This document shows, one piece after another, positions 3,404-22,295 of a stretch of 64,000 nt of DNA (positions are counted from its first letter, which is position 1; each line of letters starts with the position of its first letter). Origin of the DNA: Methylocystis echinoides (GTDB taxonomy: Bacteria; Pseudomonadota; Alphaproteobacteria; Rhizobiales; Beijerinckiaceae); the NCBI RefSeq assembly GCF_040687965.1, contig NZ_CP156084.1, positions 2,914,501-2,978,500 of the forward strand, read 5' to 3'. The translations under genes and the position numbers were made by a program. Below the pieces are notes generated by a model. The model had not been told where the DNA came from and did no database searches. It was given only the letters and a program-made list of their open reading frames with translations.

Positions 3404-3418
3404 GCGGAGCCCGCTACA

Positions 3419-5242: not shown

Positions 5243-5374
5243 ACGCTGAGCGCCGTGATTTTCAGTTGTGCCTCTGCCGCCCACATAACCTTCTTTTCTT
5301 GGCGGTTTCGACGCCTAAAAATTGTGTCTACTAGGAAGGTCCAGTGACGTTCAACCGAACCCACGAGGACCAAA

Positions 5375-6755: not shown

Positions 6756-6769
6756 CAGGGGAGAGAGCA

Positions 6770-6958: not shown

Positions 6959-7101
6959 CGTGCGCTTTTCGACGAGCGACTCAGACCGTCGCGGAGCAGC
7001 GCCGATGTGAGAGCCCCCAAAAATCGCCCCGGCGCATAGCGCCGTATCGAGAACAAGCACGCGCCCTTCGCAATTCGGCGAGCGGCGGACAGGATCAAAA
7101 G

Positions 7102-9891
7102 ATGACTGAGGAACTGCACCCAGAGCACCCGCAGGATGAGCCGCACAAGGAGAGTGGATACGGCGGCACTGGCAATGGCCACACGACGCTATCGGTTGAG
7201 GAAGCCTTCGCCGCCGCGATTGAAGCTAAATTGGAATATGGGCCGGACGAAATCATTGCGGATGGCGAAATCCATCGTTTTGGCGAGAGCGGCGAATGGG
7301 GCAAACAACCCGGCTGGTATGTCCTCCACGCCGACGATCCGCAGCCCTTTGGCATGTTCGGTGACTGGCGCACGGGCGAGAAATACCCATGGCGCGGGCA
7401 AGAGACGCGCCCGCTGACGCCAGAGGAACGCGCGGAGCGTGATAGGCAGCGCGCCGAGCGCAATAGCGAAGAGGCTAAGAAGCAACGCGCGGCGGCGCGC
7501 GAGGCTGAAAAGATTCATCGCAAGGGGCAGGAGTATTACGGCGACGCGCTTTTCGCCAAATTCCCATATTTCAGAAGGAAAAATGTGCAAGCGCACAGTG
7601 GAGTCGCTCAAATTGACGTGAACAAAATCGCGATCCCAATCTATGATCACGAAGATGCTCGCACGACTCTAGTCTCGCTGCAATATATAACGGCCACAGG
7701 CGACAAACGCTTTCTTCCAGATGGCAAAATCAAAGGTTGCTGGTTCGAGATTGGCTTACGGCAATCACCGAATAGAAACTTGATTGTGGTTGTCGAAGGC
7801 TACGCGACCGGCGCGACGATCCATGAAACGAGCGGTCTTCCTGTGATCGTTGCGTTCAATGCGGGAAACCTCGAAGCCGTAGCGAAGAAGATCGCAGCGA
7901 AATATCCGAACGCGTTGATAATCATCGCGGGCGACGATGATTACAAAACCGAACTTAAACTTAGGAATAACACCGGCGTGGAAAGCGCGAAAGCAGCCGC
8001 CAAAGCCGTTGGCGGCGTGGCGGTTTTCCCGCCCTTCGACCGCGCTAAGGACGGCGACGAGCCGAGCGACTGGAATGATCTAGCGACGCTGATCGGCAAG
8101 GATAAGCTCGCCGAGATCTTCCGGCAGACGGTCGAAGAGGCGAAGCAGCATCGCGAGGATGATCCGCCGCCCGCGCCGCCGCCTCCGCCGCGCGATCTGC
8201 TTCCGCCGCCGCCTGATGACGCTCCGCCTCCCCCTCCTGGCGATCAGACGCCGCCTGACGATCCAGACGGCAAGGCGACCATCTATATCAGCGCCGACAT
8301 GGATGTAGATCTTATCGCCTGCGCCAAGGCGCTGATTGAATCACGTCGAGTGGAAATCTTCCAACGCGGCGGATCTCTCGTCATGCGGGGTATCATTAAA
8401 GGGAAGAGCCACACCGGAGCAGAGTTGCACGACGATGCGATTATTACCCATTGCACCGAAAGCCTGCGCGTCGTGCTGGCGGCGGCGGCCGACTTTTATC
8501 GGCTCGGCAAGAAAGGCTTTTATGTCAAATGTTATCCGCCCCTGAATTTGGCGGCGGCGCTGGCGAAGTGTTCGCCGCTGATCGGGCATTTTCCGATCTT
8601 GCGCGGTCTGACGAGCATTCCAATCATCCGCGCCGATGGCACCATATTGGACAAGCCCGGCTATGATCCGGCGACCGGCATATACTACGATCCGAAAGGG
8701 ATCGACTTCGGCGACATGCCCCATGACGCCACCATGGCGGACGCCGAAACCGCTTTGCAGAAGCTAGAGGTGCTGATCAAAGACTTCCCGTTCAAGGATG
8801 AAGCGTCTCGATCCGTGGCGCTCGCGCGCATCCTCACAGGAGTGGCGCGCAGCGCCATGAAGGTCGCGATGATGTTTTTGTATGATGCGCCTGCACCGCG
8901 CACAGGCAAGAGCAAGCTGAATGATATCGCCAGCATGATCATTTCTGGGCATGAAGCGCCAGTGATCAGCGCCACAGATGATAAGGATGAGCGCGCAAAG
9001 CAGCTTGTCTCTGCGCTTAGGGGCGGCTCTCAAACCATAACGCTCGATAATCTGCCGAACGGCGAAGCGTTAGAGAGTGAGCTACTGTGCCAAATGCTGA
9101 CGCAGGAACGCGTCGAGGTCCGAGCATTCTGCACAAACGACAAGATGATTGTCCTGCCTAACATCGCAACTGTTGTCGCGAACGGCAATAATATTGGGGT
9201 CGGCGCTGACATGACTGAGCGCACATGCCTGTGCCGCCTCGACGCCAAGATGGAATTCCCCGGCGAACGCAAGTTTGATTTCGATCCGGTTGAAGTCGTC
9301 CGCGCCGATCGGGCGAAATATGTGCGCCTCTGCCTTACAGTCCTACGGGCCCATGCGCTCGCCGGTTATCCGAAGTCAGATGAACTTTCACCTGTCGGCG
9401 GCTTCGAGGAGTGGAGCAAGTTCGTGCGCGCTGGGCTTGCATGGCTCAATCGCGCTGATCCATGTGAGTCGATGAAAGCCATCAGAGAGAGTGATCCGCA
9501 GAGAGGCAGTTTGGAAACAATTATGGAGCACTGGCATAAGGCTTTCGGCATAAGTCCAAAGACCGCAGCGGACGCGATCAAATATGCCGAGGATATGGCG
9601 AAAGGCGAATATAAGGACGAAGGCGGGAGCAGGGAGACCGTTCGCGAAGCCAATGGAGAATTCCTTGCTGCAATATCAGAAGTGGCGGCAGGCACACGCG
9701 GCGGTGTCAGTCCCGTCTCGTTTGGGAAATGGTTGAAGAAGAATGTCGGCGTGGTGATTGGCGACCTTCGTTTTTATTCACCGCCGCAAGGGAAACATAA
9801 GGGCAGCGGCAAGGTGTATCACTTGGTCACGATTAAGGAGGAGGATGAGATTCGCGCTCACGGATATGGGGGCCATGATGGCCTTATGTGA
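7102..9891 (+). CDS. TOPRIM primase / helicase-like replication protein
   Basis: This product (929 residues from ATG 7102; a GTG at 6955 would add 49) has three parts. A TOPRIM domain shows VVVEGYATG with Glu232 and IIIAGDDD at residues 274-280, the acidic residues that bind metal in bacterial and phage primases. A proline-rich linker follows at about 353-390. The C-terminal half has an ATPase-like core with a degenerate P loop (APRTGKSK, near residue 600), as in plasmid and phage primase-helicases. It probably primes and drives replication of the excised element. An N-terminal zinc-ribbon is not visible. Confidence 0.82.
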   Translation: MTEELHPEHPQDEPHKESGYGGTGNGHTTLSVEEAFAAAIEAKLEYGPDEIIADGEIHRFGESGEWGKQPGWYVLHADDPQPFGMFGDWRTGEKYPWRGQETRPLTPEERAERDRQRAERNSEEAKKQRAAAREAEKIHRKGQEYYGDALFAKFPYFRRKNVQAHSGVAQIDVNKIAIPIYDHEDARTTLVSLQYITATGDKRFLPDGKIKGCWFEIGLRQSPNRNLIVVVEGYATGATIHETSGLPVIVAFNAGNLEAVAKKIAAKYPNALIIIAGDDDYKTELKLRNNTGVESAKAAAKAVGGVAVFPPFDRAKDGDEPSDWNDLATLIGKDKLAEIFRQTVEEAKQHREDDPPPAPPPPPRDLLPPPPDDAPPPPPGDQTPPDDPDGKATIYISADMDVDLIACAKALIESRRVEIFQRGGSLVMRGIIKGKSHTGAELHDDAIITHCTESLRVVLAAAADFYRLGKKGFYVKCYPPLNLAAALAKCSPLIGHFPILRGLTSIPIIRADGTILDKPGYDPATGIYYDPKGIDFGDMPHDATMADAETALQKLEVLIKDFPFKDEASRSVALARILTGVARSAMKVAMMFLYDAPAPRTGKSKLNDIASMIISGHEAPVISATDDKDERAKQLVSALRGGSQTITLDNLPNGEALESELLCQMLTQERVEVRAFCTNDKMIVLPNIATVVANGNNIGVGADMTERTCLCRLDAKMEFPGERKFDFDPVEVVRADRAKYVRLCLTVLRAHALAGYPKSDELSPVGGFEEWSKFVRAGLAWLNRADPCESMKAIRESDPQRGSLETIMEHWHKAFGISPKTAADAIKYAEDMAKGEYKDEGGSRETVREANGEFLAAISEVAAGTRGGVSPVSFGKWLKKNVGVVIGDLRFYSPPQGKHKGSGKVYHLVTIKEEDEIRAHGYGGHDGLM

Positions 9892-10566
9892 TCCGGGGGG
9901 GGGGAGGGGGGAGGCAGGAAGCACGACCTTTGGCGTTTGTTTTTTGCCGACTCAGCCAAAAAAGACTGGAGCTTGTCGCTTGGGGGGATGGGTAGATTTA
10001 GGGGGACGCCCTACCCGCCCCGCGAGAAAAAACATACTGCAGTGCAGCATAAACTTAGGGTAGCAGGGGCGTAACACCACCCCAAATCGCCCCATCCCCC
10101 CAATTGGCTTTCAGCGTTATCTCGGGTGTGTCGTCGCATCAGATCGCGAGCAAACAGAGACGCTCGCCTTATGGTTTTTTCTCGCTCTCGCCGAGCCGCC
10201 CGCCGCCACCTGCGCGCGAGTCGTCGAAAGACGAAAGCTGAGTAGGCTTCGCGGTGTCAGCTGATACCCGGCGAGACTACCGCGCGGGCCAATTGGCCCA
10301 CATTGATGAGCGCGGCAATGAGCGCGGCGTCCATGTCCGATAACACCCGCTTATCGGACATAACTAATCCCGGTAACGCCTTGAATCATAAAGTGCTTGC
10401 CGCTGGTTGACTCTCATTATCACTTAGTAGCGCCTAAAAACCTACCCAAAACCTACCCGTTTCCAACCCTCGATGTGGTGATTTGTTACCTCACAAAACT
10501 GGCCGCCTTGCCGTCGAGCCTTGTGGTAATTAGATACCATTTCATCCCAGCATATCGGGCAGATGC
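9892..10566. other. Gene-free region between primase and terminase genes
   Basis: About 675 bp with G- and C-runs near 9893-9912 and 10013-10100 and no convincing reading frame. It holds a perfect inverted repeat at 10333-10361 and a short palindrome TCAGCTGA near 10257. Lying right after the replication gene, it is a candidate for the element's origin or for a promoter of the terminase operon; neither is proven. Confidence 0.5.
10333..10361. promoter_or_regulatory. Perfect 11-bp inverted repeat with 7-nt spacer
   Basis: ATGTCCGATAA pairs exactly with TTATCGGACAT across CACCCGC. There is no T-run on either side, so a terminator is unlikely. It could be an operator or replication-initiator site about 205 bp upstream of the terminase operon. 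Confidence 0.6.
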
Positions 10567-11094
10567 ATGTCGGATTTTCAAACTGCCATCGCACCAACAG
10601 CGTCGCAACGCTCAAAGATCACGAATGCGCGTATGCGCCCGCGCATTGGTTCGCGCGCCCTCTTGATGGAAACGGACGGCCGCACGGCATGGGCGCGCCG
10701 CTACAAGGACCTTGTGGCGCTCCTGATCGACGACCTTGGGGGCATGGCGGGCCTAACCGAATTGAAGCTCGGTCTGATCCGCCGGGCCGCGACCCTGATG
10801 CTCTCTTGCGAGAGGCTCGAAACCGATATCGCGGAAGGCCGCGAAGTGGATCTTGATTTATTGGGCCGCCTCATCGGCCACGTGCGCCGCGTCGCCGAAA
10901 CGCTCGGTCTCGACCGCGCCGTAAAAGACGTAACGCCCTCGCTCGCCGATATCGTCGCCAACTCGGCCAACCCACATCACAACGCCGCCAGAAAGGCCGC
11001 TTGTGCGCCGAGACAACCCGCTACCGTCATTGAGGCGGAACCGGCCCAGGCGCTCCACGGCGCTCCTGAGCCCATTGCGGAGGCAGGGAAATGA
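10567..11094 (+). CDS. Hypothetical protein, possible small terminase subunit
   Basis: This 175-residue protein overlaps the large-terminase start (ATGA). The middle is helical and Leu-rich (around RYKDLVALLIDDLGG and LDLLGRLIGHVRRVAETLGL), with a disordered Pro/Ala C terminus. In phages and satellites the gene immediately before TerL is often TerS, which binds DNA at the packaging site. Here that role is inferred from position only; no clear helix-turn-helix is seen. An internal ATG at 10666 could be the true start. Confidence 0.55.
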   Translation: MSDFQTAIAPTASQRSKITNARMRPRIGSRALLMETDGRTAWARRYKDLVALLIDDLGGMAGLTELKLGLIRRAATLMLSCERLETDIAEGREVDLDLLGRLIGHVRRVAETLGLDRAVKDVTPSLADIVANSANPHHNAARKAACAPRQPATVIEAEPAQALHGAPEPIAEAGK

Positions 11095-12551
11095 CGCCGC
11101 TTGTCGATCTACGCTTTGCGCTCGAAAGCGAGCATCTACTTGGCCGCGTTATGGGCGGCGTTTCCCGCGAGGCAATGCGCGCCGTGCTACTCGCGTCACA
11201 AGGCGAAGAACTGACGGAATCCGAAGGCGAGCACTACCGCAAACTGACGTCACGCGACGCCTCGCCGACCGAGCCGGTTTCCGAGCTTCACATTTTCGCA
11301 GGCAGGCGGTCGGGCAAAAGCTCCGGCTGCGCGGCGCTTGCCGTCTACGCGGCTGCTCTCTGCGATTACAGCGACCGCCTGTCTCCCGGCGAGCGCGGCG
11401 TCGTCTTGCTGATCGCCGAAAATCAGAAGCAAGCCAAGATCCTGCTTAACTACATCGTCGGCATTTTCGATAGCTCGCCCGCGCTCTCGAAGCTGATCGT
11501 CGGTCGCACCCAAACGAGCTTGTCGCTCAATAATCGTATCGACATTGAAGTTAGATCAGCTGACTTTCGCGGGCTGCGCGGCCTCACGCTCATTTGCGCT
11601 ATCGGCGACGAAATCTGTCACTGGCGCAGCGACTACAGCAGCAACCCGGCAGAGGAAATCATCATCGCCGTGCGCCCCGGTCTGATCACGACCGGCGGGC
11701 AGCTAATCACGATTGGAAGCCCCTACAGCAAGACTGGCTTCGGCTATAACACATGGCGCAAGCATTTCGGTCCGCACGGCGAAGACCCGCAGGTTCTCGT
11801 CGCCAATGGTGCGACCCTCGACTTCAACAGCACGATCCCACAACGCGAAATCGACCGCGCCATCAAGGATGATCCGGCAGCAGCGCAAAGCGAATGGTTG
11901 GGCCAGTGGAGGCAGGATGTTGAAGCCTTCATTTCGCGCGAAGTTGTCGAAGCTTGCGTCATCCCCAATCGTTTCGAACTGCCGAAGACGCCATTGGCAT
12001 ATTACCACGCGTTCTGCGACCCGAGCGGCGGCAGTGGCGACGATATGGCGCTCGCCATCGCGCACCGTGAAAACAATGTCGTGGTCCTCGACGTTCTGCG
12101 CACGATCAAACCGCCGTTCAATCCCGACGAGGCGACATACGAGTTTGCCCAAATCCTAAAAGCTTATGGCTGCATGTCTGTGCTAGGCGACCGCTATGGC
12201 GGCGAATGGCCTTCACAGCGTTTCAGCGCGCATGGGATCAACTACGTTCATTCCGAGAAAACCAAGAATGAGATTTATGTGCAGGCGCTCCCTCTTCTCA
12301 TGGGCCAGCGTTGTGAGTTGCTCGACTCACAGAAGCTTATCTCGCAGCTCTCGTCGCTTGAACGCAAATGCTCTCGCGGCGGGCGTCAATCAATCGACCA
12401 TCCGCCTTCGGGGCATGACGACGCGGCGAACGCCGCTTGTGGGGCATTGGCGTTGGCTGGCGGTTGGGCCGACGACTTCAATCTCGATGAATATGTCCGC
12501 GCATATGGAACAGACGACATCGTCCGAAGATGGGAAGCAGGAGAACGATAA
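11091..12551 (+). CDS. Phage terminase large subunit
   Basis: This 486-residue protein has the two-domain layout of TerL. The ATPase half has a Walker A-like AGRRSGKSS at residues 70-78 and a Walker B-like LICAIGDE with the catalytic acidic pair. The RNase H-like nuclease half shows CDPSGGSGDDMALAIAH, LGDRYGGEW and a late GHDDAANA, matching the acidic metal-binding residues of the family. Length is normal and all key motifs are present, so it looks functional. It would pump DNA into a procapsid, yet no capsid or portal gene is present in the element. Confidence 0.88.
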   Translation: MTPLVDLRFALESEHLLGRVMGGVSREAMRAVLLASQGEELTESEGEHYRKLTSRDASPTEPVSELHIFAGRRSGKSSGCAALAVYAAALCDYSDRLSPGERGVVLLIAENQKQAKILLNYIVGIFDSSPALSKLIVGRTQTSLSLNNRIDIEVRSADFRGLRGLTLICAIGDEICHWRSDYSSNPAEEIIIAVRPGLITTGGQLITIGSPYSKTGFGYNTWRKHFGPHGEDPQVLVANGATLDFNSTIPQREIDRAIKDDPAAAQSEWLGQWRQDVEAFISREVVEACVIPNRFELPKTPLAYYHAFCDPSGGSGDDMALAIAHRENNVVVLDVLRTIKPPFNPDEATYEFAQILKAYGCMSVLGDRYGGEWPSQRFSAHGINYVHSEKTKNEIYVQALPLLMGQRCELLDSQKLISQLSSLERKCSRGGRQSIDHPPSGHDDAANAACGALALAGGWADDFNLDEYVRAYGTDDIVRRWEAGER

Positions 12552-12582
12552 CGCAGCTTCCCAAAATTGAAAGGTAAATGCA

Positions 12583-13161
12583 ATGACTCTCGACACGCTC
12601 AAACACGTTCGTGCAATGCAGGAAACGAGTATGGCGCTCGAATCCCAACTCCGCGACGCAGGCGCTTACACCCGCGACTGCGCCAGAGTGTATGACGCCA
12701 TCGCTCGCGGCCACAAGAGCGGAATCGCTTTGCTTTGGGGCGCGGATGGAAAGATGGAAATCGTCGATTTGAACGGGGGCAGTAAGCATGTGTCCGTAAC
12801 CGACGAAGGCGAGCATGTGACCATCGAAACGAACTTCGAGGGCTGGCACAACCCCGGCCGCGAAGAGAAGCGCCGCGACGATACCAGTAAGATCACCACA
12901 GAAGCGGGCGAAGCGCCGTATCGTCAAGTGGCGGGCGAGGAATTCGCCAAGGGCTCAGCGCGTTCGCATGAACGCGAGAACGCGACCAAGGGGCGTTTCG
13001 AGCCGCAGACTCACGCCGCCGATAAAGCACTCGCCGTGCGCCTTGCCGAAAAACGCAAACAGATGACCGCTGACGCCAAGCGTTTTACCGCCGAGCAATA
13101 TGCCCGGAACGAACGCATCGCCGCCGCCATGAAAGAGCGCAGTGCACAGATTCATCGTTGA
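12583..13161 (+). CDS. Hypothetical protein after terminase
   Basis: This 192-residue hydrophilic protein lies 31 bp after the terminase gene with a reasonable Shine-Dalgarno (AAGGTAA). The first half looks globular, with a strand-rich GIALLWGADGKMEIVDLNGG segment. The second half is charged and probably helical and disordered. There is no signal peptide and no membrane segment, and no family is recognised. Position suggests it belongs to the packaging operon. Confidence 0.65.
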   Translation: MTLDTLKHVRAMQETSMALESQLRDAGAYTRDCARVYDAIARGHKSGIALLWGADGKMEIVDLNGGSKHVSVTDEGEHVTIETNFEGWHNPGREEKRRDDTSKITTEAGEAPYRQVAGEEFAKGSARSHERENATKGRFEPQTHAADKALAVRLAEKRKQMTADAKRFTAEQYARNERIAAAMKERSAQIHR

Positions 13162-13169
13162 CAAAGGCT

Positions 13170-13195
13170 GGCTTACAATCGGGCGATTGTAAGCC
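13170..13195 (+). promoter_or_regulatory. Perfect hairpin, 11-bp stem and 4-nt loop
   Basis: GGCTTACAATC and GATTGTAAGCC flank GGGC. It starts 9 bp after one stop codon and ends 20 bp before the next ATG. No U-tract follows, so it may be an attenuator, RNA-stability hairpin or operator rather than a simple terminator. Confidence 0.65.
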
Positions 13196-13214
13196 AAAAC
13201 CCCGGAGCGCCCCC

Positions 13215-14021
13215 ATGGGCACAACATTAATCCAAAACCCGCGTAAAACTCTTGCAGCGGCCATCGAAATCAACGCCGAGGCGCTCGCCGCCATGCACAG
13301 TGTGGAGCTAACCCTGCAAAAGGCGCGCGACCTGCATTGCGGGCTACTGGCGCAGAAGGCGGACGCGTTTACGAATCTCGACAACTCCATTGCGTCGGCG
13401 CGCGCCGCCAACTTGAAGCGCGTTCTCGAAGGGGGCGATGAAGAGGCGCACCTATTGACGCAAGAGCCGCAAGGCTTCGCCGCTGCGAAGATCGCGCGTG
13501 AGCAACTAGACGAAAAGATTCAGGCGGTCGAAGCCAGCCTGCCGACGCTGGAATCAGAACTGATCGAAGCGCGCAAAGCGGCTGAAATGGCCGACTTCCA
13601 TTTGGATCAAGCCCGCGCCGCCGTGTTCGCTTATGAGGCCGAAAAGCTCGCCATCGAATTCCACGAGCGCCTTCACGACCTGCGGCTTGCAAGCATCCGC
13701 TTGGCGGCGATGGCGAACCGCCCGATGAAACGCAATCCAGCCGTGCAACGTTCTGACGGTCCATACTATGGGGGCGGAAGCACCACGATTCCCATGCCTC
13801 CGAGCGTCCTCGAAGCTGTCGCCGAGCCCATAATGGGAAACTTCGATCGAAAGACGCCTCCCGCCCGCAAGAATGAAATCGCCGCCGCCGTCTCGGAATG
13901 GTGGGGCGCGTTGCGAAATGATCCGAATGCGACTCTCAGCGCGGAGACAAAAGAGGGGCTGTTTCTGTCTCGCGTTCGGTCCAATGTATCCGACGCTTCC
14001 GACGTTTCAGGCGCGGGATAA
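13215..14021 (+). CDS. Coiled-coil hypothetical protein
   Basis: This 268-residue protein starts at an ATG with CGGAG eight bases upstream; a TTG at 13158 would run through the hairpin and is less likely. Residues around 25-160 are Ala/Glu/Leu-rich and predicted as a long coiled coil (for example KIQAVEASLPTLESELIEARK). The C terminus is Gly/Ser/Pro-rich and then charged. There is no signal peptide. Long coiled-coil proteins occur as phage scaffolds or tail-related parts, but I cannot assign one here. Confidence 0.65.
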   Translation: MGTTLIQNPRKTLAAAIEINAEALAAMHSVELTLQKARDLHCGLLAQKADAFTNLDNSIASARAANLKRVLEGGDEEAHLLTQEPQGFAAAKIAREQLDEKIQAVEASLPTLESELIEARKAAEMADFHLDQARAAVFAYEAEKLAIEFHERLHDLRLASIRLAAMANRPMKRNPAVQRSDGPYYGGGSTTIPMPPSVLEAVAEPIMGNFDRKTPPARKNEIAAAVSEWWGALRNDPNATLSAETKEGLFLSRVRSNVSDASDVSGAG

Positions 14022-14586
14022 CTGGCCGCTGTCTATCTCACGTATCCACGATACGGAAAGCGTCGTATTCCAATTCGGTCCCGTTGGGCTTTCGCGCTTT
14101 TCCCAACGGACGCGCGGAACGCAAGCCTTCCTGTCTTGCATCCCTGCGCGAGCTGGGAGACGTGGGGCGTCTCGGGATGCGGCGCTCTGCGATTCCCACA
14201 TATTTGAACAGCGGCGCGGACATGGTTGCCAGTATCTCTATCGCGTCGCCCAGAATTCCGCGTGATCCATTAGATTGCGCGGGGCTCGCCCTATCACTTG
14301 GTGAACGAACGACGCGGAGCTCGCTTAGCCGTTCTTCCTAGTAACAAATAAGATTGCCCCTCATCGCCAGTTCAAAGCGATCACGATATCGCCACGGCAA
14401 AGAAGAGCGCCGCCGCCACGATAGGCGTGAACATGACAGGGAATCAGTAAAGATACTTAATCCTAAAGATACTTAATCCTCTTGAACACCCATCCTAAAA
14501 GGCGCCTGGCAGCGCCTTCGTACCGCCTTATTTCCTGACCTGAAGCGCCGAAAGGCAGCTTCGTACAAACCATGGAGTATTTGCTC
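14022..14586. other. Intergenic stretch with a 16-bp tandem duplication
   Basis: About 565 bp separating the phage-like genes from the cargo genes. Overlapping frames here have no coding character that I can trust. It ends with a 16-bp tandem repeat and the leader of the secreted repeat protein. Confidence 0.5.
14449..14480. repeat. Exact 16-bp tandem duplication
   Basis: TAAAGATACTTAATCC occurs twice back to back, about 107 bp before the secreted repeat protein gene. It could be promoter-proximal slippage or a doubled binding site. Confidence 0.75.
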
Positions 14587-14886
14587 ATGAGGAAGCTCCT
14601 TCTCATTCCCACCATTCTGGCCCTTTCAACGAGCTTCGCCTTTGCGCTCGATCTGAGCCAGTGGGCGAGCGTCAAACAGTCGATTGGCGACACCTCGAAG
14701 GGCGGCTTCGCGCTTAACAAGGCGTTCGTCGTGCAGGCACAGGTCCCGGTGAACCAATACAATGGCGATCTTTCGCAGAAGGCGAGCGTCAAACAGTCGA
14801 TTGGCGACACCTCCAAGGGTGGCGATGCCATCAACAAGGCGACCGTGATCCAGGCTCAGGTTCCGCTGAACTTCGGCGCTCCGTGA
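14587..14886 (+). CDS. Small secreted repeat protein, paralogue of the gene at 1-255
   Basis: This 99-residue precursor has a signal peptide (MRKLLLIPTILALSTSFAFA) and two tandem units of about 40 residues. Each contains QSIGDTSKGG, then NKAxVxQAQVP. The start at 14587 matches the paralogue, and GGAG lies ten bases upstream. The mature protein is small, polar and Gly/Gln/Asn-rich. The NxAxxxQ spacing recalls curlin strands, so a fibre or surface role is possible but unproven. It is carried within the mobile element while its relative is just outside, implying exchange between host and element. Confidence 0.78.
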   Translation: MRKLLLIPTILALSTSFAFALDLSQWASVKQSIGDTSKGGFALNKAFVVQAQVPVNQYNGDLSQKASVKQSIGDTSKGGDAINKATVIQAQVPLNFGAP

Positions 14887-15002
14887 GAATAGCTCTGCGG
14901 TCTTGAAGTAGATCGCGGTCAATATGGCCGCGATCTCACCTCCAAAAGCGATTGAATGGCGATCTGTCATCGCCATCGACGACGAAAGCGGGGGAATAGA
15001 AA

Positions 15003-15338
15003 ATGAAATATTGGCTTATTCCCGTTCTTGCTTGCATCGGCGTCGGCCAGGCGCACGCGGGCGATTTCATCAGCGTCAAGCCGAGCTTCATCGGCGTCAA
15101 CTTCGGAAACAACCCGCTTTTGAGCGCCAAGGCCGGGGTGTCGCTGGGCCAACACAACACCGACAACACCACCCAGACCAGCCGCGTTAATTTCTACGGC
15201 GTCCAACAAGTCGCCATTGGCAAGGCAGGCAGCTCCCTCAGTAACGATACGACGGTCACTCAAGTCGGGAAACAAAGCTACGCGGGCGTTGGCCAGCACA
15301 TTGAGTCGTTGCCTCCTTTGCCATCCGGTCAACCCTAG
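15003..15338 (+). CDS. Small secreted Asn/Gln/Ser-rich protein
   Basis: This 111-residue precursor follows the secreted repeat protein by 116 bp, with a strong GGGGGA ribosome site. It has a signal peptide (MKYWLIPVLACIGVGQAHA). The mature part is rich in Gly, Gln, Asn, Ser and Thr, with repeated short motifs such as GQHNTDNTTQT, VQQVAIGKAG and VTQVGKQSYAGVGQ. These resemble curlin-type QxGxxN strands loosely. It is probably exported together with the preceding protein. No transporter or nucleator gene is near. Function is unknown. Confidence 0.7.
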   Translation: MKYWLIPVLACIGVGQAHAGDFISVKPSFIGVNFGNNPLLSAKAGVSLGQHNTDNTTQTSRVNFYGVQQVAIGKAGSSLSNDTTVTQVGKQSYAGVGQHIESLPPLPSGQP

Positions 15339-15404
15339 TTGGCGCGGCGGTCCAATAAACGGGGCGCAGGAAATATCGCTGACGATGGCGTGTGGGGGTG
15401 GGCC

Positions 15405-15821
15405 ATGTTTGCATCAGATTGGCCTCATATCGACCACGAATGGCGCAACTGTAAACGCGCTATTCTAGCCTATCACGTCGGAGGCTGGCGCGAGGGGGAG
15501 TCGCCGCTGGACGCCCTCGCCCGGGCTCTGGGCGTTTCGGCGCAGAACATTCGATTAGAACCGACCGACTCCGCGGCCAACGAACTTGAACAGCTTTCGG
15601 CCTGTCTGGGGGTGGGCTGGGGTGAATTTCCTGGGCTTAACATCGCGGAAGTTGTCTCCCTCGCGATATCAGCACTCAATGAAAAGCTCAGAGTAGTTCC
15701 GCCCGAGGTTTGCGCCTTTTTTGGCGCGCCGCAACAACTTGAGCCTTTCCCGCTAGGGCGTTCAAGTGAGGGCGTCGCGAGAGCGCGACGCGAGAGGCTT
15801 CCTATTGTACTCGAGCTATAA
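15405..15821 (+). CDS. Hypothetical protein
   Basis: A 138-residue product if translation starts at ATG 15405, which has a G-rich leader. A TTG at 15339, directly after the previous stop, would add 22 residues. It is acidic and helical with no signal peptide (GWREGESPLDALARALGVSAQNIRLEPT). A segment around DALARALGVSAQNIR has the look of a helix-turn-helix, but the match is weak. No family is recognised. Confidence 0.5.
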   Translation: MFASDWPHIDHEWRNCKRAILAYHVGGWREGESPLDALARALGVSAQNIRLEPTDSAANELEQLSACLGVGWGEFPGLNIAEVVSLAISALNEKLRVVPPEVCAFFGAPQQLEPFPLGRSSEGVARARRERLPIVLEL

Positions 15822-16586
15822 TTCGGTAGTGAGCTCATGACGTTCCCAGAGCAATTGACCGGGAGCATGTTGCGGGCGTAGGGCGACGTTCCGGCCCTCG
15901 CGGCGGCACAAGTCGTAAGCCGCGCGGGCTTCCGCAGCCCCTCACCGTCATGTTAAAGGCGACGGTCAGCTTTAACTCTTCTTCTGCCGAGTTACCAGAT
16001 GGGAAGCCCCGTGGTACGCGAAACGGACGAGGCATAGGTTAACCCTCCCATATTTCACCCCTGCGCCAGCGCCCGCCGCTGCGGCGAGGAATCCATGAAC
16101 AGCACGGGAGGGGCGGCAAGATCACTCCCGGGCTTCGTTTTGCTACGCCAATGCCATCGCCAATGCCGAGAATTCTGCTACACCGCGTTTGAGCGCGCGA
16201 CGATATTGTGAACAGGAGGAGGGAACCCGGCGGGGGGCGGCTCGATCTTCCAAAAGCCATCGGGCGGGCGGCCTTCCGACTGCGCTTCCGAGAAAACGAA
16301 GGTGAAGCCGCCGAGAGGGGTTTCAAGACTCCGGCGGCTTCGTGTCGGCGCGTATGGCAGGGGGGCTTTAAAGACCGTGGCATGTCTCCTGATCGCTACG
16401 AAGCCCGTATGTGCGGGCACGCACAGCACAGAGAGAAACTTGTGAACGGCATTAATATGATTCACGCCATTGGACTTTGTTTTCGCTTCCGCTTGTCTTT
16501 GTGGGGGACGCGAAAAATTGCAGTCGGCGCGAACGATTATGTCGAGCGGCAAGTTAAGCACGTAAAGCAAAAATAAAGGTATAATC
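15822..16586. other. Intergenic stretch before the NepR-like genes
   Basis: About 765 bp. Open frames exist on both strands, including one on the minus strand from 16588 to 16178 with a hydrophobic start. Their composition and lack of ribosome sites give no support, so I call no gene. The last 100 bp are more AT-rich and likely hold the promoter of the first NepR-like gene. Confidence 0.45.
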
Positions 16587-16796
16587 ATGCCGTCCCCGAA
16601 ACTCAGCCTTGTGGCACAGACCGAGTCGAGTGACGCTCTGGTAATTCAGCACGCGCTTGGCGTCGCTTTACGGTTTTCACACGCGAGGATTGCCGAAGAG
16701 GCACTGCCTCGCGATTTCGCGCTGTTGCTGATGCGGCTGGCGCTGGCCGAAGTTGTCAAAAGCACGCCGGAGGACGAAGGCGGGGGACAAAAGTAA
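16587..16796 (+). CDS. NepR-like anti-sigma protein, divergent copy
   Basis: This 69-residue protein has AAAGG upstream of its ATG. Its core (residues about 22-55: ALGVALRFSHARIAEEALP, then DFALLLMRLALAE) follows the NepR pattern of a short helix, an E-x-L-P turn and a second Leu-rich helix. It is the most diverged of three copies in 2 kb. NepR proteins hold the stress sigma factor EcfG inactive until PhyR binds them. Neither partner is in the window. The family assignment for this copy depends on its better-matching neighbours. Confidence 0.55.
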   Translation: MPSPKLSLVAQTESSDALVIQHALGVALRFSHARIAEEALPRDFALLLMRLALAEVVKSTPEDEGGGQK

Positions 16797-16968
16797 ACGG
16801 GGGCGCACCCCTTCTTTCGCCGTTGACCAAAGACCCTCTGATCCGCTTTTCGTTCTTCGTTCCGTGCAACCGCCCCCCTTTGTGGTTGGCGTGAAAAATT
16901 GCCGCACAGAAACCATTTTCCTCACGCGTTAATTGAAAGGTCCGAGAGCAAACAAAAAGGGTGGCGCT

Positions 16969-17160
16969 ATGTCTACTCCCGGCGTTGAAGATACGGCGCT
17001 CATTGAGCGCGAATTGGGGAGCGCCCTTCGATCATTCTTTAGCCCGATCATTTGTGAGCCATTGCCGCCGCAAATAAGGGTGCTTCTTGATAAGCTTGCA
17101 GCGAGAGAAAGGCGCTGCGCCATGGATAAAAAGGCATGGGCTGCGATGCACCGCCTTTGA
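16969..17160 (+). CDS. NepR-like anti-sigma protein
   Basis: This 63-residue protein starts at an ATG with AAAGGG upstream. The stretch ALIERELGSALRSFFSPI is followed by CEPLPPQIRVLLDKLAARE and matches the NepR consensus LRxxYxxVxxEPxPxxFxxLLxxLxxxE well, with Phe replacing Tyr. NepR binds the EcfG sigma factor in the alphaproteobacterial general stress response and is titrated by phosphorylated PhyR. Followed 62 bp later by a conserved 190-bp non-coding repeat shared with the copy at 18504. Its presence on a mobile element is unusual. Confidence 0.72.
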   Translation: MSTPGVEDTALIERELGSALRSFFSPIICEPLPPQIRVLLDKLAARERRCAMDKKAWAAMHRL

Positions 17161-17222
17161 AAGCGCGCCCGCCAAGTTTTGGTTCTTCTCAAACAGAACA
17201 GGCGGCCCACCCAAGCGCTGTG

Positions 17223-17414
17223 GGCGAGCCGTCGCCTCTCAAAGAAACCTCTTGAAAACACAACCACGGTAGCCCGCGCCTGCCAGAGCGCAAATGCGTA
17301 TTTTCCCTTATTTGCCGGTGCATTTTATCGCCGATAGATTCGGTCACTTCTGCGCAAGCAGACGAGTCGGGCTGGCGGCGCGAACCTTTGGCTACGGGCT
17401 GCCAGTCCGATGAG
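17223..17414 (+). ncRNA. Conserved non-coding repeat, copy 1 (candidate structured RNA)
   Basis: These 192 bp align almost gap-free with 18757-18947 and begin about 60 bp after a NepR-like gene, as does the other copy after about 25 bp. Near the 3' end an 8-bp hairpin (17372-17379 with 17398-17405, 18-nt loop) is kept in both copies although three paired bases differ. This suggests selection on RNA structure. It could instead be a DNA element. Transcription is not shown by the sequence. Confidence 0.5.
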
Positions 17415-17762
17415 CGCCGATATGGCGGGGTGCAGCTTGACTGTGATTCGCCGCACGCCAGTAATGTTCAGACGGGGCTCGTGCAACGCCAAGCTTGGTT
17501 TCGCCAAGGGTGCTGACGCTGGCGGATGAAATTCCCCGACGTTGCGGGAACATGCGACGTTCAATCCGTTAATAGAGGCTTACCGTCTTGGACTTGTGGC
17601 TTTTGCCAAAGAGGACGAAGGGAGTCGCGTTCGCTTCTGGCTTCGCGGCCCGACCATGAATTCATCGGCCGGGCCGCTTGTCGCTCAGACCGCCGCGTAG
17701 GCCCTAGAAAAGCGCCTACCCTTGGCCAGTGGAGGGATGGCCGGTTCTGAGCGTCACCCGGC

Positions 17763-18245
17763 TTAGCGCGATTGGTTCGCGGGGCGTCCCGCAATTTCCT
17801 CCGGCGGTTGCCAAACGGTATCCAAGTGTGCGTTGGCGCTGGAGCTGTTGGCGTTCTTCGAACCGCGCCGACTTTCGGCGACTGCCTGTTCGGCAATGCG
17901 CCAATCTTCATCGCTCCAATTTTTCGCGTCCGTCTTGGCCGACTTCGAACCGATGGAAGGCAGGACTGCCTTGATGCCGCTCGTTATCTTCTCGCCGATT
18001 GACTGTTCAGAACCTCGCGCCGATCCATACGCATTTTGAGGGATTTGCTTAGGTTGATCCATCATATTCCAGATCGAAGCGTTCGGGGCTGGCGCTTGTT
18101 GCGCAATCGCGAAGCCTTCTTCTGGAAGGCTTGCCACACGACGCGGCGTTGCTGCGGTAGTGGCGTAGCCCAATACCGCGAGAGCGGCCAATAGTGCGGA
18201 AGCACCGACGATGTGTCGATTGATGGTAGCTGGCAGCTTCATCAT
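17763..18245 (-). CDS. Membrane-anchored or exported hypothetical protein
   Basis: A 160-residue product from an ATG with AGGAGCG seven bases upstream. The N terminus has one hydrophobic segment (about residues 11-32, ending AVLGYATTAATPRR), either a signal anchor or an uncleaved signal. The rest is polar and Ser/Ala/Gln-rich, with a conserved-looking NWSDEDWRIAEQAVAESRRG segment. It is the only minus-strand gene in the element interior, lying between the two NepR-like units. No family is recognised. Confidence 0.6.
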   Translation of the reverse strand: MMKLPATINRHIVGASALLAALAVLGYATTAATPRRVASLPEEGFAIAQQAPAPNASIWNMMDQPKQIPQNAYGSARGSEQSIGEKITSGIKAVLPSIGSKSAKTDAKNWSDEDWRIAEQAVAESRRGSKNANSSSANAHLDTVWQPPEEIAGRPANQSR

Positions 18246-18503
18246 AAACTCGCTCCTGATTGACAGGGAAAGCATGTAGAAAGGCCCTTCGGTCCGATCC
18301 CATTAGCGCCGTTAGGTAGCGTTGCTTAGCTGATTTCCAGCGTTGCTAGAACGCTAACCTTCATCGCTTGCTGGACAAAGAAGAGAAGGAGCAGGCGGCA
18401 GAGCGTTAGGGTGAGCCCTGAGAAATATTTTCAGGAATTTTGTTGGATCACGGCTCGAACGGCGTGCGTTGCTCGAAAGACTACAACTGGTTTTCCCCTC
18501 GCA

Positions 18504-18731
18504 ATGTCACGCACCACTCAACTTGCTCGAGAGGACAAAGCGCTCATTGAACGCGAAATCGAGAACGGTCTTCGCTCATACTACGGCCCGGTCGCTCGTG
18601 AGCCTCTACCGGCTGAATTCGAGGCGCTGCTAAAGCAGTTGGAAGAGACGGAGGCGCGTTGCGGGGACGCGACGAGGACGGGCCTTCCGGGCTGTGTGGT
18701 TAACGTCGTGTTTTGTGTGTGTCGGAAATAG
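18504..18731 (+). CDS. NepR-like anti-sigma protein, best-matching copy
   Basis: Residues about 13-47 (EIENGLRSYYGPVAREPLP then EFEALLKQLEETEAR) fit the NepR consensus closely, including the Tyr-Tyr and EPLP turn. The 75-residue length is normal for the family. The C-terminal tail is odd, being hydrophobic and Cys-rich (GCVVNVVFCVC). ATG 18504 lacks a clear ribosome site; a GTG at 18411 would add 31 residues. NepR homologues sequester EcfG. Having no PhyR or EcfG nearby, this protein may act on the host's system. Confidence 0.72.
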   Translation: MSRTTQLAREDKALIEREIENGLRSYYGPVAREPLPAEFEALLKQLEETEARCGDATRTGLPGCVVNVVFCVCRK

Positions 18732-18756
18732 ACGGCTCGCCCGGAGGTGCTTCCAA

Positions 18757-18947
18757 GGCGAGCCATCCAATTGCCCGTGAAAAGCTCTCTTGAAACACAA
18801 GCACGGTAGCCCGTGCCTGCCAAAGCGCAAATGCGTATTTTCCCTCATTGTTTTGGCATTGTTGGCCGTTAGGGTCGGCCCTTCTGCGCGAGCAGAGTGT
18901 CGGACTGGCGGTGCGAACCTTCGGCTACGGGCCGCCAGTTCGATGAG
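18757..18947 (+). ncRNA. Conserved non-coding repeat, copy 2 (candidate structured RNA)
   Basis: Aligns with 17223-17414, with long shared blocks such as AGCGCAAATGCGTATTTTCC. The 3' hairpin is formed by 18905-18912 and 18931-18938. Relative to copy 1, one G-U pair becomes G-C and one C-G becomes U-G, so pairing is retained. The loop differs at only one base. The unit NepR-like gene plus this tail appears to have been duplicated. Confidence 0.5.
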
Positions 18948-19044
18948 TGTTCGACATTCAGACTTTGCCAAACATCGGCGGTTTACCGCGTAGCCGTTTC
19001 AATTTGGTCCTCTCGCCCTATTTTGGAACGAAGAAGAGGATGAA

Positions 19045-19707
19045 ATGAAAGAAAATTGGGACGTGAGCATCAGTCGGGAGGCCGCGGAAATGGTCCTTGA
19101 TTTCTTAGGCCCGCCTGAAGGACCGCCGTGCGAAAAAAAGGATGCGCTCCGCGACATAATAAGAGCTGCTCTAGACACGCCCGCTCTCGAATCGGCAAAG
19201 GAGGAGTCGCGCATTAACCTGGCGCAAGCGATTGACGGGCTCGCGCAGGCGGAAAGTGCGTTCGTGGAGTCTCTCGCGCATGGCAGTGAAAGCGTCCAGC
19301 GCATTGCCTCGGCGGCGGTTGATGCCCAGGAAACTAGGCTGCGAGGTGCGCAGGAAATGTATGACGCCGCTGCGGGAAATGCGCTGGATGCAACGGCTGA
19401 AAGCGCCGAGAGAAATCGCAGGCTCGCCTACAGTAAGTCTGAGAAAGCCCATGACGAGGCGCTTGCCGCGCTTCGGGCTTTTGAGCCAATGGCACAAGAG
19501 TTGTCAAAGCTCTTCAGGATCCTTTCCTTTCACGCCGATCTCGCGCTGGCGGATACCGAAGCAGCCGACAGGGCGAGGATCAGCCCTCACGCGGCAAACG
19601 CAGCCGATCACCTACAGAAAATTCTTCAGCAGCAGAAACTGGGTCATTTGGAAGCCGTGACGAAACACGCCCTTGCGGCCTTGCACGAGCTGGAGTTGGC
19701 GCAGTAG
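19045..19707 (+). CDS. Alpha-helical hypothetical protein
   Basis: This 220-residue protein has AGAGGATGA before its ATG. It is rich in Ala, Glu and Leu throughout and predicted almost wholly helical, with heptad-like patterns from residue 55 on. There is no signal peptide or membrane span. No family is recognised. It follows the second NepR-like unit, about 100 bp after the repeat, and is followed by a 720-bp gene-free stretch. Confidence 0.65.
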   Translation: MKENWDVSISREAAEMVLDFLGPPEGPPCEKKDALRDIIRAALDTPALESAKEESRINLAQAIDGLAQAESAFVESLAHGSESVQRIASAAVDAQETRLRGAQEMYDAAAGNALDATAESAERNRRLAYSKSEKAHDEALAALRAFEPMAQELSKLFRILSFHADLALADTEAADRARISPHAANAADHLQKILQQQKLGHLEAVTKHALAALHELELAQ

Positions 19708-20428
19708 ATCAGTCGAGAGAGGCTGGTTCCGCCAGAGAGAGTCACCTGATCGCGCAATAGGCCAAGCGCCCGAACATGATCGACATGCGTTGAGGGACGC
19801 GGGGCAGGGGGCGCTCGCTGAATCGGGGGGGGCGCTTACCTACCGCCCCCACCCGTTCCGCGCATATGAACAAAGTTCTTTGGCTTGGTCTTACTGGCCG
19901 GAGCGGGCACGCCGCAATGTCGCCGCGTCACCTTGCGTCTAATAGCGCCGCCGAGAGTGTGCGGGTCCGCCGACTTCCCGCACCCGGCTGGCGGCTCGTT
20001 GGCCTAGCTCTCCGACGAGCCGCCTCTGCTGAATTCAGGGCTCGCACCAAGATCGCGCATCACCCTGACGCCCGCCGCTTCGCACAAAGGATCAGCGCCG
20101 GGGCATGGGCGACGATTTGGTTTTGAACCCCGGCGACGCCTTATGTCCAATTTTCTCCCGCATAGGTCCAGCGTCGGACTCTGATACGCTAACTTGACTG
20201 CGGACCGCTGCAATACTAAGGCCCCCTACGTGCGCGAAAGCGAACCGGCCGGTAGTCCGTGCCCCCAGATTTTGCCCCTTGCGCCCTGCCCGGCGGCAGG
20301 GGCGGCAGGCAGGCGACCTTCGCCGTTTGTCCTGCCTTGTGAATCTCAAAAGCTTTTGATTGCGAGCTTGCCGAGAAAAAAAGAATCTCGGCGTGCCGTA
20401 TATGATTCGTAATCGGGGACAACTCTAA
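19708..20428. other. Intergenic stretch with repeat and hairpins
   Basis: About 720 bp without a supportable gene. It contains one copy of a 32-bp repeat (20094-20125) and a 7-bp hairpin with an A-rich loop at 20370-20392 (GCCGAGA/TCTCGGC). GC content falls sharply near 20400, where the AT-rich cargo begins. Confidence 0.5.
20094..20125 (+). repeat. 32-bp direct repeat, left copy
   Basis: AGCGCCGGGGCATG, then GCGACG, then TTTGGTTTTG is shared with 21650-21680, differing by one substitution and one indel. A partial third copy lies at 21560-21578. The two full copies flank the AT-rich membrane gene in the same orientation. Confidence 0.65.
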
Positions 20429-20548
20429 ATGTCGGAAGTCACGACCCCACCCGCCGCGCCAAAAATGATTATTTCCTACAGTTGGACCCAGTGGAGATCA
20501 TGTAATTTCTCTTGCGGAAGACTTTATACGAATGAGCCTGCCAAATAA
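20429..20548 (+). pseudogene. Frameshifted start of a TIR/SEFIR-like domain
   Basis: The frame from ATG 20429 encodes APKMIISYSWT, the typical first strand and loop of TIR/SEFIR domains, then loses sense and stops at 20548. Skipping one base after residue 20 (in the run CCCA near 20487-20490) continues as SGDHVISLAEDFI, which resembles the following TIR helix. That frame runs straight into the membrane gene. No later TIR motif is present, so the domain is both frameshifted and truncated. TIR domains act as NAD-consuming or signalling modules in antiphage systems; this copy looks dead. Confidence 0.5.
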
Positions 20549-21359
20549 TACACAACATCAGTCGAATCGAGCGAACTACATGAATCTGAAATCACCGACC
20601 AGCACAGTTCGACGTTCGATCTTTATGGAAAGCTCCGATCGGATAGAGCAGCTCTTAGGGGACGAGTCAAATCGCGATTTATTCAGCGAATCATACTTCG
20701 CCCGGATCGAAACTCAACTTGATAAGGTAACAGGGAAGCTTACTAGCATTTATTTGTCGACAATCGTCATTGGACTGGTCATGTTTCTGGTTTTTATAAA
20801 TGAGGAGATAAGCTTCAGTATTGGTGGATTGTCATTTAGTAAATCAGACAAGGTTATAAGAGACGTGATTTTCTTTTTCTTCCTGAACGCATGTCTTCTG
20901 ATTTCATATTTATACAGATACAGAATGACTTTAATCTCGATCTTGGACAGTCGCTATAAGTCAAGGTTGAATCAGGATAGCTTCCACCTGTTTAGAGCGG
21001 CTTATATTTACATGCCATTCGCCATTGTATTTATGAAAAAGACAGACGATCAATTTACCCCGACCATTTTTACGATATTAATGCAAGTTTTTTCGGGTGT
21101 CACTCTGATGTGTGTAATTGCTATTCTTGGTATGGCCGCGATCTCTATACAACTTGGTTTAATCAGCTATGCTATATACACGATTTTCAATGACCCATCA
21201 AAATTTACTTGGCTTTCCTACCTCGTCGGAGTTTATGCAATTTTGGTCTTCGTCCACGACATTGCATTTGGGATACTCGGATTGCCTCTAGTTTACGACC
21301 GCATCGCCGAGAACGCGGCGAACTTGAGCGTTGAGCTAAAGCAGAAAGGCGATGCCTAA
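20532..21359 (+). CDS. AT-rich multi-pass membrane protein
   Basis: This product of up to 275 residues has about five hydrophobic segments, including around STIVIGLVMFLVFI, VIFFFFLNACLLISYLY, the MPFAIVFM region, a long span after FTPTIFTILMQVF, and WLSYLVGVYAILVFV. The true start may be 20580 or 20625, since the first 30 residues are low-complexity and in frame with the shifted TIR fragment. Base composition is far more AT-rich than its neighbours, a sign of recent transfer. No family is recognised. With the TIR remnant it may come from a membrane-effector defence gene pair, which is speculative. Confidence 0.72.
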   Translation: MSLPNNTQHQSNRANYMNLKSPTSTVRRSIFMESSDRIEQLLGDESNRDLFSESYFARIETQLDKVTGKLTSIYLSTIVIGLVMFLVFINEEISFSIGGLSFSKSDKVIRDVIFFFFLNACLLISYLYRYRMTLISILDSRYKSRLNQDSFHLFRAAYIYMPFAIVFMKKTDDQFTPTIFTILMQVFSGVTLMCVIAILGMAAISIQLGLISYAIYTIFNDPSKFTWLSYLVGVYAILVFVHDIAFGILGLPLVYDRIAENAANLSVELKQKGDA

Positions 21360-21649
21360 TACGGCAAAACTGCCGGGTGTGGCATTTTCGGCATCGCCGC
21401 ATTGCGTCGTAAGCGCGAAGAACGCCCCCCGCCGATACATCCACGGTCGGGGCGTTTCGGGGTGCTGGGATCACACGCCCGCGTCGAGGAATAAATACCT
21501 CACCAAGCGGCCACCACCAAGCCCGAGGGCGAGCTTTAAGCCGGGGACCGCCAAGGGTCAGCGCCGGGCATGAGCGAGGGACTCGCCCTCCAATCAACCA
21601 AAGCCAAAACTCAACCGTCAAGCGAAGCGCGCCAGTCCGCATCGGGGCG

Positions 21650-21680
21650 AGCGCCGGGGCATGTGCGACGTTTGGTTTTG
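21650..21680 (+). repeat. 31-bp direct repeat, right copy
   Basis: Matches 20094-20125 in the same orientation. Together they bracket the TIR fragment and AT-rich membrane gene. Confidence 0.65.
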
Positions 21681-21701
21681 GACGCGGGAAGGGCGCGCAG
21701 A

Positions 21702-21735
21702 AACGCCCCGACGCCTGATAGACGCACGGGGCGTT
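21702..21735 (-). terminator. Hairpin terminator of the molbindin gene
   Basis: A perfect 9-bp stem (AACGCCCCG/CGGGGCGTT) begins 8 bp after the molbindin stop codon and is followed on the minus strand by TTTCT. The same stem-half sequence recurs in the hairpin at 21421-21456. Confidence 0.65.
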
Positions 21736-21742
21736 GGCTTCT

Positions 21743-21952
21743 TTAATCGACCGCAACCATGACTTCGGAAGATTTAATGACTGCGTAAGCCTTCTTTCCA
21801 ACCTGAAGGTCAAGTTCATCCACGGATTCATTAGTAATCGATGCTGTGATGGTGGCACCCTTCACGTCGAGCAGAACGTGCGAAGTGGTCGCGCCTTTTT
21901 TAATTTCTTTGATGGTGCCTTCGAGCACGTTGCGGGCTGAAATTTTCTTCAT
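21743..21952 (-). CDS. mop: Molbindin, molybdenum-binding Mop-domain protein
   Basis: This 69-residue protein is a single Mop/TOBE domain. It starts with the typical MKKISARNVLEGTIKEI and has the GATTSHVLLDV strand and ITNESVDELDLQVGKKAYAVIKSSEVM pattern of molbindins. Such proteins assemble into hexamers that store molybdate or tungstate oxyanions in the cytoplasm. GGAGGAGG precedes the ATG. It has its own terminator and is cargo near the right end of the element. No molybdate transporter or ModE is adjacent. Confidence 0.88.
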   Translation of the reverse strand: MKKISARNVLEGTIKEIKKGATTSHVLLDVKGATITASITNESVDELDLQVGKKAYAVIKSSEVMVAVD

Positions 21953-22219
21953 ATGCGCCTCCTCCGCTGAAAGCCAAAGCGGTTGTCACTTTGGAATAGC
22001 GCTCAGCTAATCGCCCGAAGAAGAAAAGAAAAGGGACAGCGAGCCGCACGCGTGCCTGACCTTTGGGCGAAGCGCCAAGCCATGACCGACGCCCGTTGAC
22101 GCGGGGGCAGGGGGCGCAAACATCCACTCCCGCCCATCAAAATCCATCCGCTTCCACGGGCGTATATTACACAGATTTACACAAATCCGTGCAGCAATTT
22201 CGTAATGCATTGAAAAGAT
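21953..22219. other. Right-end flank of the element
   Basis: About 265 bp between the molbindin promoter region and the right attachment site. It contains the second arm-type site at 22160-22183 and no gene. Confidence 0.5.
22160..22183. promoter_or_regulatory. Putative integrase arm-binding site, right
   Basis: TTACACA at 22167-22173 and 22177-22183, again 10 bp apart, in a 24-bp block matching 3380-3403 at 22 positions. It lies 37 bp from the attachment core. Confidence 0.55.
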
Positions 22220-22267
22220 TGGCGCTCCCTAGGGGACTCGAACCCCTGTTTTCGCCGTGAGAGGGCG
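22220..22267. repeat. Right attachment site within tRNA-Glu
   Basis: Identical to 3222-3269 over 48 bp. It covers the 3' part of the intact tRNA, so insertion regenerated a complete tRNA gene. Confidence 0.92.
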
Positions 22268-22295
22268 ACGTCCTAGACCGCTAGACGAAGGGAGC
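22220..22295 (-). tRNA. tRNA-Glu (anticodon CTC)
   Basis: On the minus strand the 76-nt sequence folds into a full cloverleaf. The acceptor stem GCTCCCT/AGGGAGC, the T arm with GTTCGAGTC, the anticodon loop CTCTCAC (anticodon CTC) and a genomically encoded CCA are all visible. It is the integration target of the element to its left. Confidence 0.95.

Follow-up and report, generated by a model that had tools for sequence, protein, structure and literature searches.

The anti-sigma factor NepR holds back the EcfG general stress response, which governs stress survival in Alphaproteobacteria. The canonical NepR proteins (PDB 3t0y, 2lfw, 4qic and 5uxx) have, by profile, a common core of LR, then E-P/A-L-P and then a Leu-rich stretch, and the canonical gene lies beside ecfG or phyR. 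Small NepR-family proteins beyond the canonical NepR were described in M. extorquens AM1 (MexAM1_META1p1275, META1p2700 and META2p0735) as host genes, with no mention of phage in the available part of the report (PMC4814048). According to the same part of that report, two of the three NepR paralogues co-precipitate PhyR and EcfG binding was detected for none, with the authors allowing for missed interactions; one paralogue lowers stress resistance on overexpression and is induced through EcfG and PhyR. Two types of viral element are also comparable. Phage satellites of the PICI-like type are 7-20 kb long and carry att repeats, an integrase and replication genes, and no structural genes, as summarized in the accessible part of PMC13376191. 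Phages of Bacillota encode sigma factors that alter dormancy (PMC9429907, available in part) and are thus viral carriers of genes of a host sigma-factor control circuit.

The locus described here lies in a window of 64,000 nucleotides, the whole stretch of DNA analyzed (C1:2914501-2978500), in a genome of 4.35 Mb whose two ammonia/methane monooxygenase A family genes (PF02461) mark the host as a methanotroph. Part of its second replicon has matches in plasmids, 5 of 83 records being from Methylocystis, and the host is taken to be Methylocystis-like. Unlike the orphan genes of M. extorquens AM1, the NepR-like copies of the window are located on a tRNA-integrated phage-like element, three in a row, together with a non-coding block. 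Unlike canonical NepR, they have no detected PhyR or EcfG on the same element, and the first and second copies have diverged below the family threshold. Judged from its genes alone the element resembles the phage satellites, from which it differs by its large terminase gene, by the absence of a known helper and by its relatives of a host regulator. Whereas the phages of Bacillota carry sigma factors, this element carries anti-sigma-type NepR in an alphaproteobacterium. The NepR family and its orphan paralogues were already known; the phage-like carrier and the non-coding companion are new.

The element occupies positions 3222-22267 (about 19 kb) and is flanked by an exact 48-bp direct repeat of the 3' end of tRNA-Glu(CTC), with attL at 3222-3269 and attR at 22220-22267, within the tRNA-Glu(CTC) gene at 22220-22295 (minus strand). 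The protein-coding genes named in this paragraph are on the plus strand. A tyrosine integrase (3419-4681; Pfam Phage_integrase, 87.9 bits) adjoins the left repeat; aligned over 416 aa, it shows 86.8% identity to its counterpart in element A of genome G018. It is followed by a topoisomerase-like protein (5602-6489; phrog_6247, E 1.4e-56, without Pfam match), a primase-type replication protein (6955-9891; phrog_29234 and DNA-primase PHROGs, Pfam Toprim_3) and the terminase large subunit, terL (11091-12551; phrog_2, E 2.1e-21). The gene directly before terL (10567-11094) is without match in Pfam or PHROG and is assigned to the small-terminase position by place only; a 58% identical gene occupies the corresponding position in G018 element B. 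Two genes after terL (12583-13161 and 13158-14021) are 54% and 58% identical to their counterparts in G018 element B, where the order is kept, and are also present after terL of locus L104. Among 18 element proteins scanned against PHROG, a part of all ORFs, the terminase was the sole head-and-packaging match and no capsid or tail match was obtained; PADLOC defence models gave zero matches to eight element proteins. With its integrase, att repeats at a tRNA and own replication gene (6955-9891), the element is classified, with some reservation, as a phage-satellite-like integrative element that a helper phage may mobilize. The original prediction of a phage-like mobile element is thereby borne out. 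The same prediction held that PhyR and EcfG are missing from it, in agreement with a blastp search with host PhyR1 and EcfG1 (E<=0.01) that found nothing among element ORFs of at least 60 aa; by this search the NepR-like genes also lack the canonical position beside ecfG or phyR.

The three ORFs on the plus strand are NepR-like 1 (16587-16796, 69 aa), NepR-like 2 (16969-17160, 63 aa, with the ATG at 16969 and an open frame from 16933) and NepR-like 3 (18504-18731, 75 aa). The Pfam NepR model (PF18557, curated cut-off 25.7 bits) was passed by the third protein (36.0 bits, E 5.2e-9) but missed by the second (17.5 bits, E 0.0032), and the first had zero matches at E<=10. Because this model has only 35 positions, a second profile was derived from other loci of the genus, using 59 NepR-like ORFs, canonical and orphan and many of them similar to one another, with no window sequence included. 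Searched against 5209 ORFs, this window-free profile recovered all three window ORFs, with E-values of 2.5e-10 (third), 6.5e-10 (second) and 9.1e-8 (first). Conversely, a profile made from only the window's three proteins had four matches at E<=10 among 177,635 distinct PDB sequences, all of them NepR (5uxx, 4qic, 2lfw and 3t0y; E 5.7e-6 to 2e-4). NepR-like 3 alone found three of these four chains weakly (E 0.08-0.2); two unrelated chains followed at E 0.42 and 1.6. At the level of sequence profiles, all three ORFs are thus confirmed as homologues of the anti-sigma factor NepR, and the earlier assignment of genes starting at 16587, 16969 and 18504 is upheld. The claim that all three match the core motif LRxYY/EPLP stands for the third, which is exact; the second (LRSFF/EPLP) and first (LRFSH/EALP) deviate. 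In the strict sense of family membership the third classifies as NepR, and the first and second are named NepR-like only, since they fall under the Pfam cut-off and their homology comes from the other profiles.

Rough signs of purifying selection were obtained with the NG86 method, with dN/dS values of 0.43/4.6 for NepR3, 0.52/1.41 for NepR2 against NepR3 and 0.35/1.42 for NepR1; dS is saturated in these comparisons, and for several pairs YN00 failed or yielded no estimate. In a tree built on 40 columns of the NepR core, too few to be relied on, NepR-like 1 and its counterpart from G017 grouped close to the copy of the L016 island, and NepR-like 2 and 3 grouped with the second G017 gene and L052.

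The host genome contains two complete PhyR-NepR-EcfG modules (C1:1488095 and 1680417), and a search with EcfG1 returned EcfG1 itself, one 49% identical paralogue and three distant sigma factors. A count of NepR copies in the genome and in related elements, which the original prediction had called for, gave eight matches in the genome at E<=0.05, five of them above the Pfam cut-off; two of the eight are the second and third genes of the window, and copies are also carried by the related elements G018 A, G018 B and G009. Across 39 genomes of the genus, some incomplete, the number of matches at E<=0.05 ranged from 0 to 9 with a median of 5, and 30 genomes had at least three; at this threshold one of 14 control genomes (Caulobacter) gave a match. 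Extra NepRs are the rule in the genus, so that the presence of several is not special. The orphan NepR-like gene at C1:90809 has, by eye, no element around it and adjoins a divergent DUF4118-HisKA2 kinase gene; this pair (L018 9744-11200) is similar to that on the G009 element, with 55% identity between the two kinases. Two other orphan copies of the host (L016 and L017) have an integrase gene within 3-8 kb.

Phage-like elements integrated at tRNA genes repeatedly carry NepR-like genes as cargo, as drawn from the repeats and NepR-like genes of four elements (window, G018 A, G018 B and G009) in three species and at three tRNA targets. The terL of the window had 13 matches above 300 bits in seven of the 39 genomes and any match in ten. 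A NepR-like gene was present near three of the 13 long matches, namely in the window, at G018 C2:2326280 (element B) and at G009 C1:1270268; this is a lower bound, as up to 20 kb was read around each match and at least two stretches (L107 and L108) were shortened by contig ends. Element B of G018 has a 144-bp repeat at tRNA-Val and its own integrase (Pfam), and its order is the small-terminase-position gene, terL, two genes, a NepR1 remnant, a gene for a 170-aa protein on the opposite strand and NepR3. It is decayed, with an in-frame stop in NepR3 and NepR1 reduced to a remnant. Element A of G018 is flanked at tRNA-Glu by a 46-bp repeat and shows no terminase match. The integrase of element A is 87% identical to that of the window, and the element shares with the window the arrangement NepR1, 170-aa gene and NepR3. 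Its NepR1 had no Pfam NepR match and an E-value of 2.4e-11 to a profile that included this NepR1 itself. Directly upstream of it lie genes for PAS, HWE_HK (76 bits) and receiver (29.7 bits, cut-off 30.2) domains; the kinase gene may be split, because the PAS and kinase parts are spread over three ORFs. The G017 contig carries the same NepR cassette, without visible element ends, and repeats the PAS, HWE_HK and receiver series in unchanged order. The G009 terminase element has 19-bp repeats at tRNA-Thr, one of which is adjoined by an integrase (Pfam). Its distinct NepR-like gene (E 1.4e-7 to a profile without this gene; Pfam 13.8 bits, under the cut-off) adjoins a DUF4118-HisKA2 kinase gene. 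A NepR-like gene thus stands beside an HWE/HisKA2 kinase gene on two elements, G018 A and G009. This kinase class feeds the general stress response, according to the part of PMC12148442 available.

Searches with the G018 A kinase and receiver as queries found nothing in the window element. Two more terminase elements of the host genome (C1:3207464 and 3405177; L103 and L104) have no NepR-like gene within the 20 kb read. In a tblastn search of 50,697 phage records the third window protein had four weak matches only (E 3 to 6); the match in a rhizobial phage falls inside a 987-nt gene and was judged to be due to chance. No NepR match was found in a plasmid collection at E<=0.1, and single-protein scans of IMG/VR, sensitive to close relatives only, gave confirmed relatives for neither NepR-like 3 nor the terminase. 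These results are weak evidence of absence, because records near the window's genome are left out of the phage, plasmid and viral collections. Among the open-access titles searched, a set that leaves aside most subscription journals, none reported NepR on a phage or mobile element.

The 170-aa protein between NepR-like 2 and NepR-like 3 (17763-18275, minus strand) has, by eye, a hydrophobic N-terminal stretch and is 65-70% identical to its neighbour-gene counterparts in G017, G018 A and G018 B. It had no match in Pfam (E<=0.05), PHROG, NCBIfam or PADLOC. As for the NepR-like genes, dN of the 170-aa gene is well below a saturated dS. Beyond 17763-18275 the family has 23 matches, in 12 of the 39 genomes. 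Four of its six close members (>55% identity) lie beside a NepR-like gene, one of these broken, with L115 beside a weak NepR remnant (E 0.04) and L114 beside none; distant members mostly have no NepR-like gene in the stretch read.

A block of about 165 nt (163-174 nt) is positioned after NepR-like 2 and again after NepR-like 3. Copy 1 (17256-17425, plus strand; hairpin core 17372-17405) is 82-86% identical to copy 2 and the G017 and G018 copies, and copy 2 (18793-18955, plus strand; hairpin core 18905-18938) is 81-83% identical to copy 1 and those copies. Between the window copies and against the relatives the block is 81-86% identical, compared with 56-60% for the preceding NepR ORFs; among the close G017 and G018 copies, block and NepR ORF are both 92-100% identical. 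Between window and relatives the block therefore appears to be under stronger constraint than the NepR gene. When 145 nt of three copies were folded, they were more stable than shuffled sequences (z -2.32, -1.70 and -3.32), as was the hairpin part of two copies (z -2.55 and -3.65). In a consensus structure of five sequences, one of 46 pairs was changed on both sides with pairing kept, and the covariation term was small (-0.32). The long hairpin showed several one-sided pair changes and three broken cells, all in the decayed G018 B copy; the fold outside it had six further broken cells, in other copies. Taken together, these data back the hairpin but not the remaining structure. With <=3 mismatches allowed, the 34-nt hairpin occurred four times in the 39 genomes, each time behind a cassette NepR gene, with the G018 B copy too diverged to count, whereas a reversed control pattern had no occurrence. 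The window's own genome has the block twice only. Rfam at E<=0.1 returned tRNA only and no family for the block. The block was rejected as coding sequence, as copies differ by single-base indels, and, by eye, as an integron attC site, since the AAC/GTT core that we take to mark attC is not kept in copy 1. Its 20-nt core was found in three stretches of public genomes, with about one chance match expected by estimate; one stretch is the G017 contig (RXIY01000073.1). In the two others and in one viral contig the 20-nt core alone was kept and the stretch read had no NepR-like ORF. The stronger conservation of a non-coding block than of the gene before it stands as an unexplained finding by itself.

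An EcfG-type promoter at the cassette is not supported. With the consensus taken to be GGAAC-N16/17-CGTT, a weak promoter-like match with one mismatch, GGATC-N17-CGTT, lies upstream of NepR-like 3 (18445-18470, plus strand). GGATC-N17-TGTT precedes NepR3 in three relatives, so that the spacing GGATC-N17-YGTT is kept in all four aligned sequences. A scan of positions 14000-19500 (<=1 mismatch, spacers 15-18) gave five sites, against 4.4 expected from shuffles. Among the five, a single site is exact, with a 15-nt spacer; it is located at 17547, about 1 kb before NepR-like 3. Each of the two canonical-module stretches has a single exact site, in both cases with a spacer of 16 nt.

The original prediction had taken several NepR copies to suggest manipulation of the host stress response. 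Similar cargo on three further elements, two of them with HWE/HisKA2 kinases, favours this idea; the copies found genus-wide and C1:90809, by eye element-free, weaken it. Extra NepRs alone do not show manipulation, because copies occur throughout the genus, at least one orphan has no element around it by eye and the host has two general stress response modules. The observation is thus more general than first seen with respect to recurrent cargo, and less special with respect to NepR multiplicity. For the mechanism we give about an even chance to the reading in which the orphan NepR paralogues are element cargo that enters the host PhyR-NepR-EcfG switch, mainly as a PhyR decoy that dampens or shortens the general stress response. 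The element proteins would bind the sigma-like domain of host PhyR in competition with the host NepRs; more host NepR would be left on EcfG, and the response would be dampened or shortened. The third, most canonical copy may also bind EcfG directly, which is less likely than an action on PhyR. The M. extorquens results (PMC4814048, as far as available) provide a precedent for PhyR titration in host paralogues, and the two host modules offer a target. PhyR binding and an effect on the stress response are presumed here, with element or host as possible beneficiary; a benefit to the element is plausible. Against this mechanism stand the low Pfam scores of NepR-like 1 and 2, G018 A NepR1 and the G009 gene, all under threshold, the decay of G018 B with its NepR3 stop and NepR1 remnant, and the presence of a NepR-like gene in the stretches read at only three of 13 long terL matches. 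Further points against it are the genus-wide NepR multiplicity, in which not all copies look mobile by eye, the promoter scan with no more sites than chance, and the phage, plasmid and IMG/VR collections without a significant NepR match.

The copy numbers in the genus (0-9 per genome, median 5, 39 genomes) would also be expected if the genus expands NepR to wire many kinases into one general stress response and elements merely shuttle host-serving paralogues that ride on islands. The kinase beside C1:90809, paired as in G009, and the integrase genes near two other host orphans fit with this explanation, which we consider possible and rather doubtful; the cassette of the window type exceeds random shuttling, because the linked 170-aa gene and the conserved block recur on elements at two different tRNAs. 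It is unlikely that the genes are functionless, decaying passengers copied with the element. The stop codon and remnant in G018 B and a NepR-like 1 outside the reach of Pfam would agree with decay, but copies are open in the window, G017 and G018 A, dN is well below the saturated dS for NepR3, NepR1 and the 170-aa gene, and the non-coding block appears more constrained than the gene between window and relatives. That same block raises the improbable case of an element-borne cassette that pairs a NepR-like anti-sigma gene with a conserved structured RNA of its own and lets the element hold the host response down, or sense it, while it integrates, replicates or transfers; the putative RNA may set the dose of the NepR-like protein or act on the host alone. 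A private switch, by which element NepRs and an element-borne kinase/receiver or other partner sense host stress and control excision or replication, is very unlikely. It would account for the PAS, HWE_HK and receiver series that immediately precedes NepR1 in G018 A and recurs in unchanged order in G017, and for the HisKA2 kinase beside NepR in G009; the G018 A kinase and receiver are without match in the window element, the receiver is just below the Pfam cut-off, and the kinase gene is maybe split, its PAS and kinase parts being spread over three ORFs. If the element NepRs do act as decoys or otherwise work in the host, mobile elements would target stress physiology in Alphaproteobacteria, much as they target dormancy in Bacillota, and would be the source of some of the orphan NepR excess. 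These elements may then tune the host stress response, a question made directly testable by the small size of the cassette.

Further observations concern the surroundings of the cassette. A gene trio at 14572-14886, 15003-15338 and 15339-15821 encodes two small, by eye secreted-looking repeat proteins and a 160-aa protein. The trio is also present at L016 16307-17541, L017 5578-7540 and L102 15911-17261; two further NepR orphans of the host genome have it at a distance of 2-6 kb, and it is also found to the left of the element. The G+C content left of the element (window 1-3000) is 0.54-0.58, compared with 0.64-0.70 right of 22000, which puts the element at the margin of a more extensive low-GC region. 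About 130 kb to the left of the element, locus L017 (C1:2787346) contains a sequence (2347-2396) 90% identical to the 3' end of tRNA-Glu, beside an integrase 52% identical to that of the window, and this is probably another, older integration.
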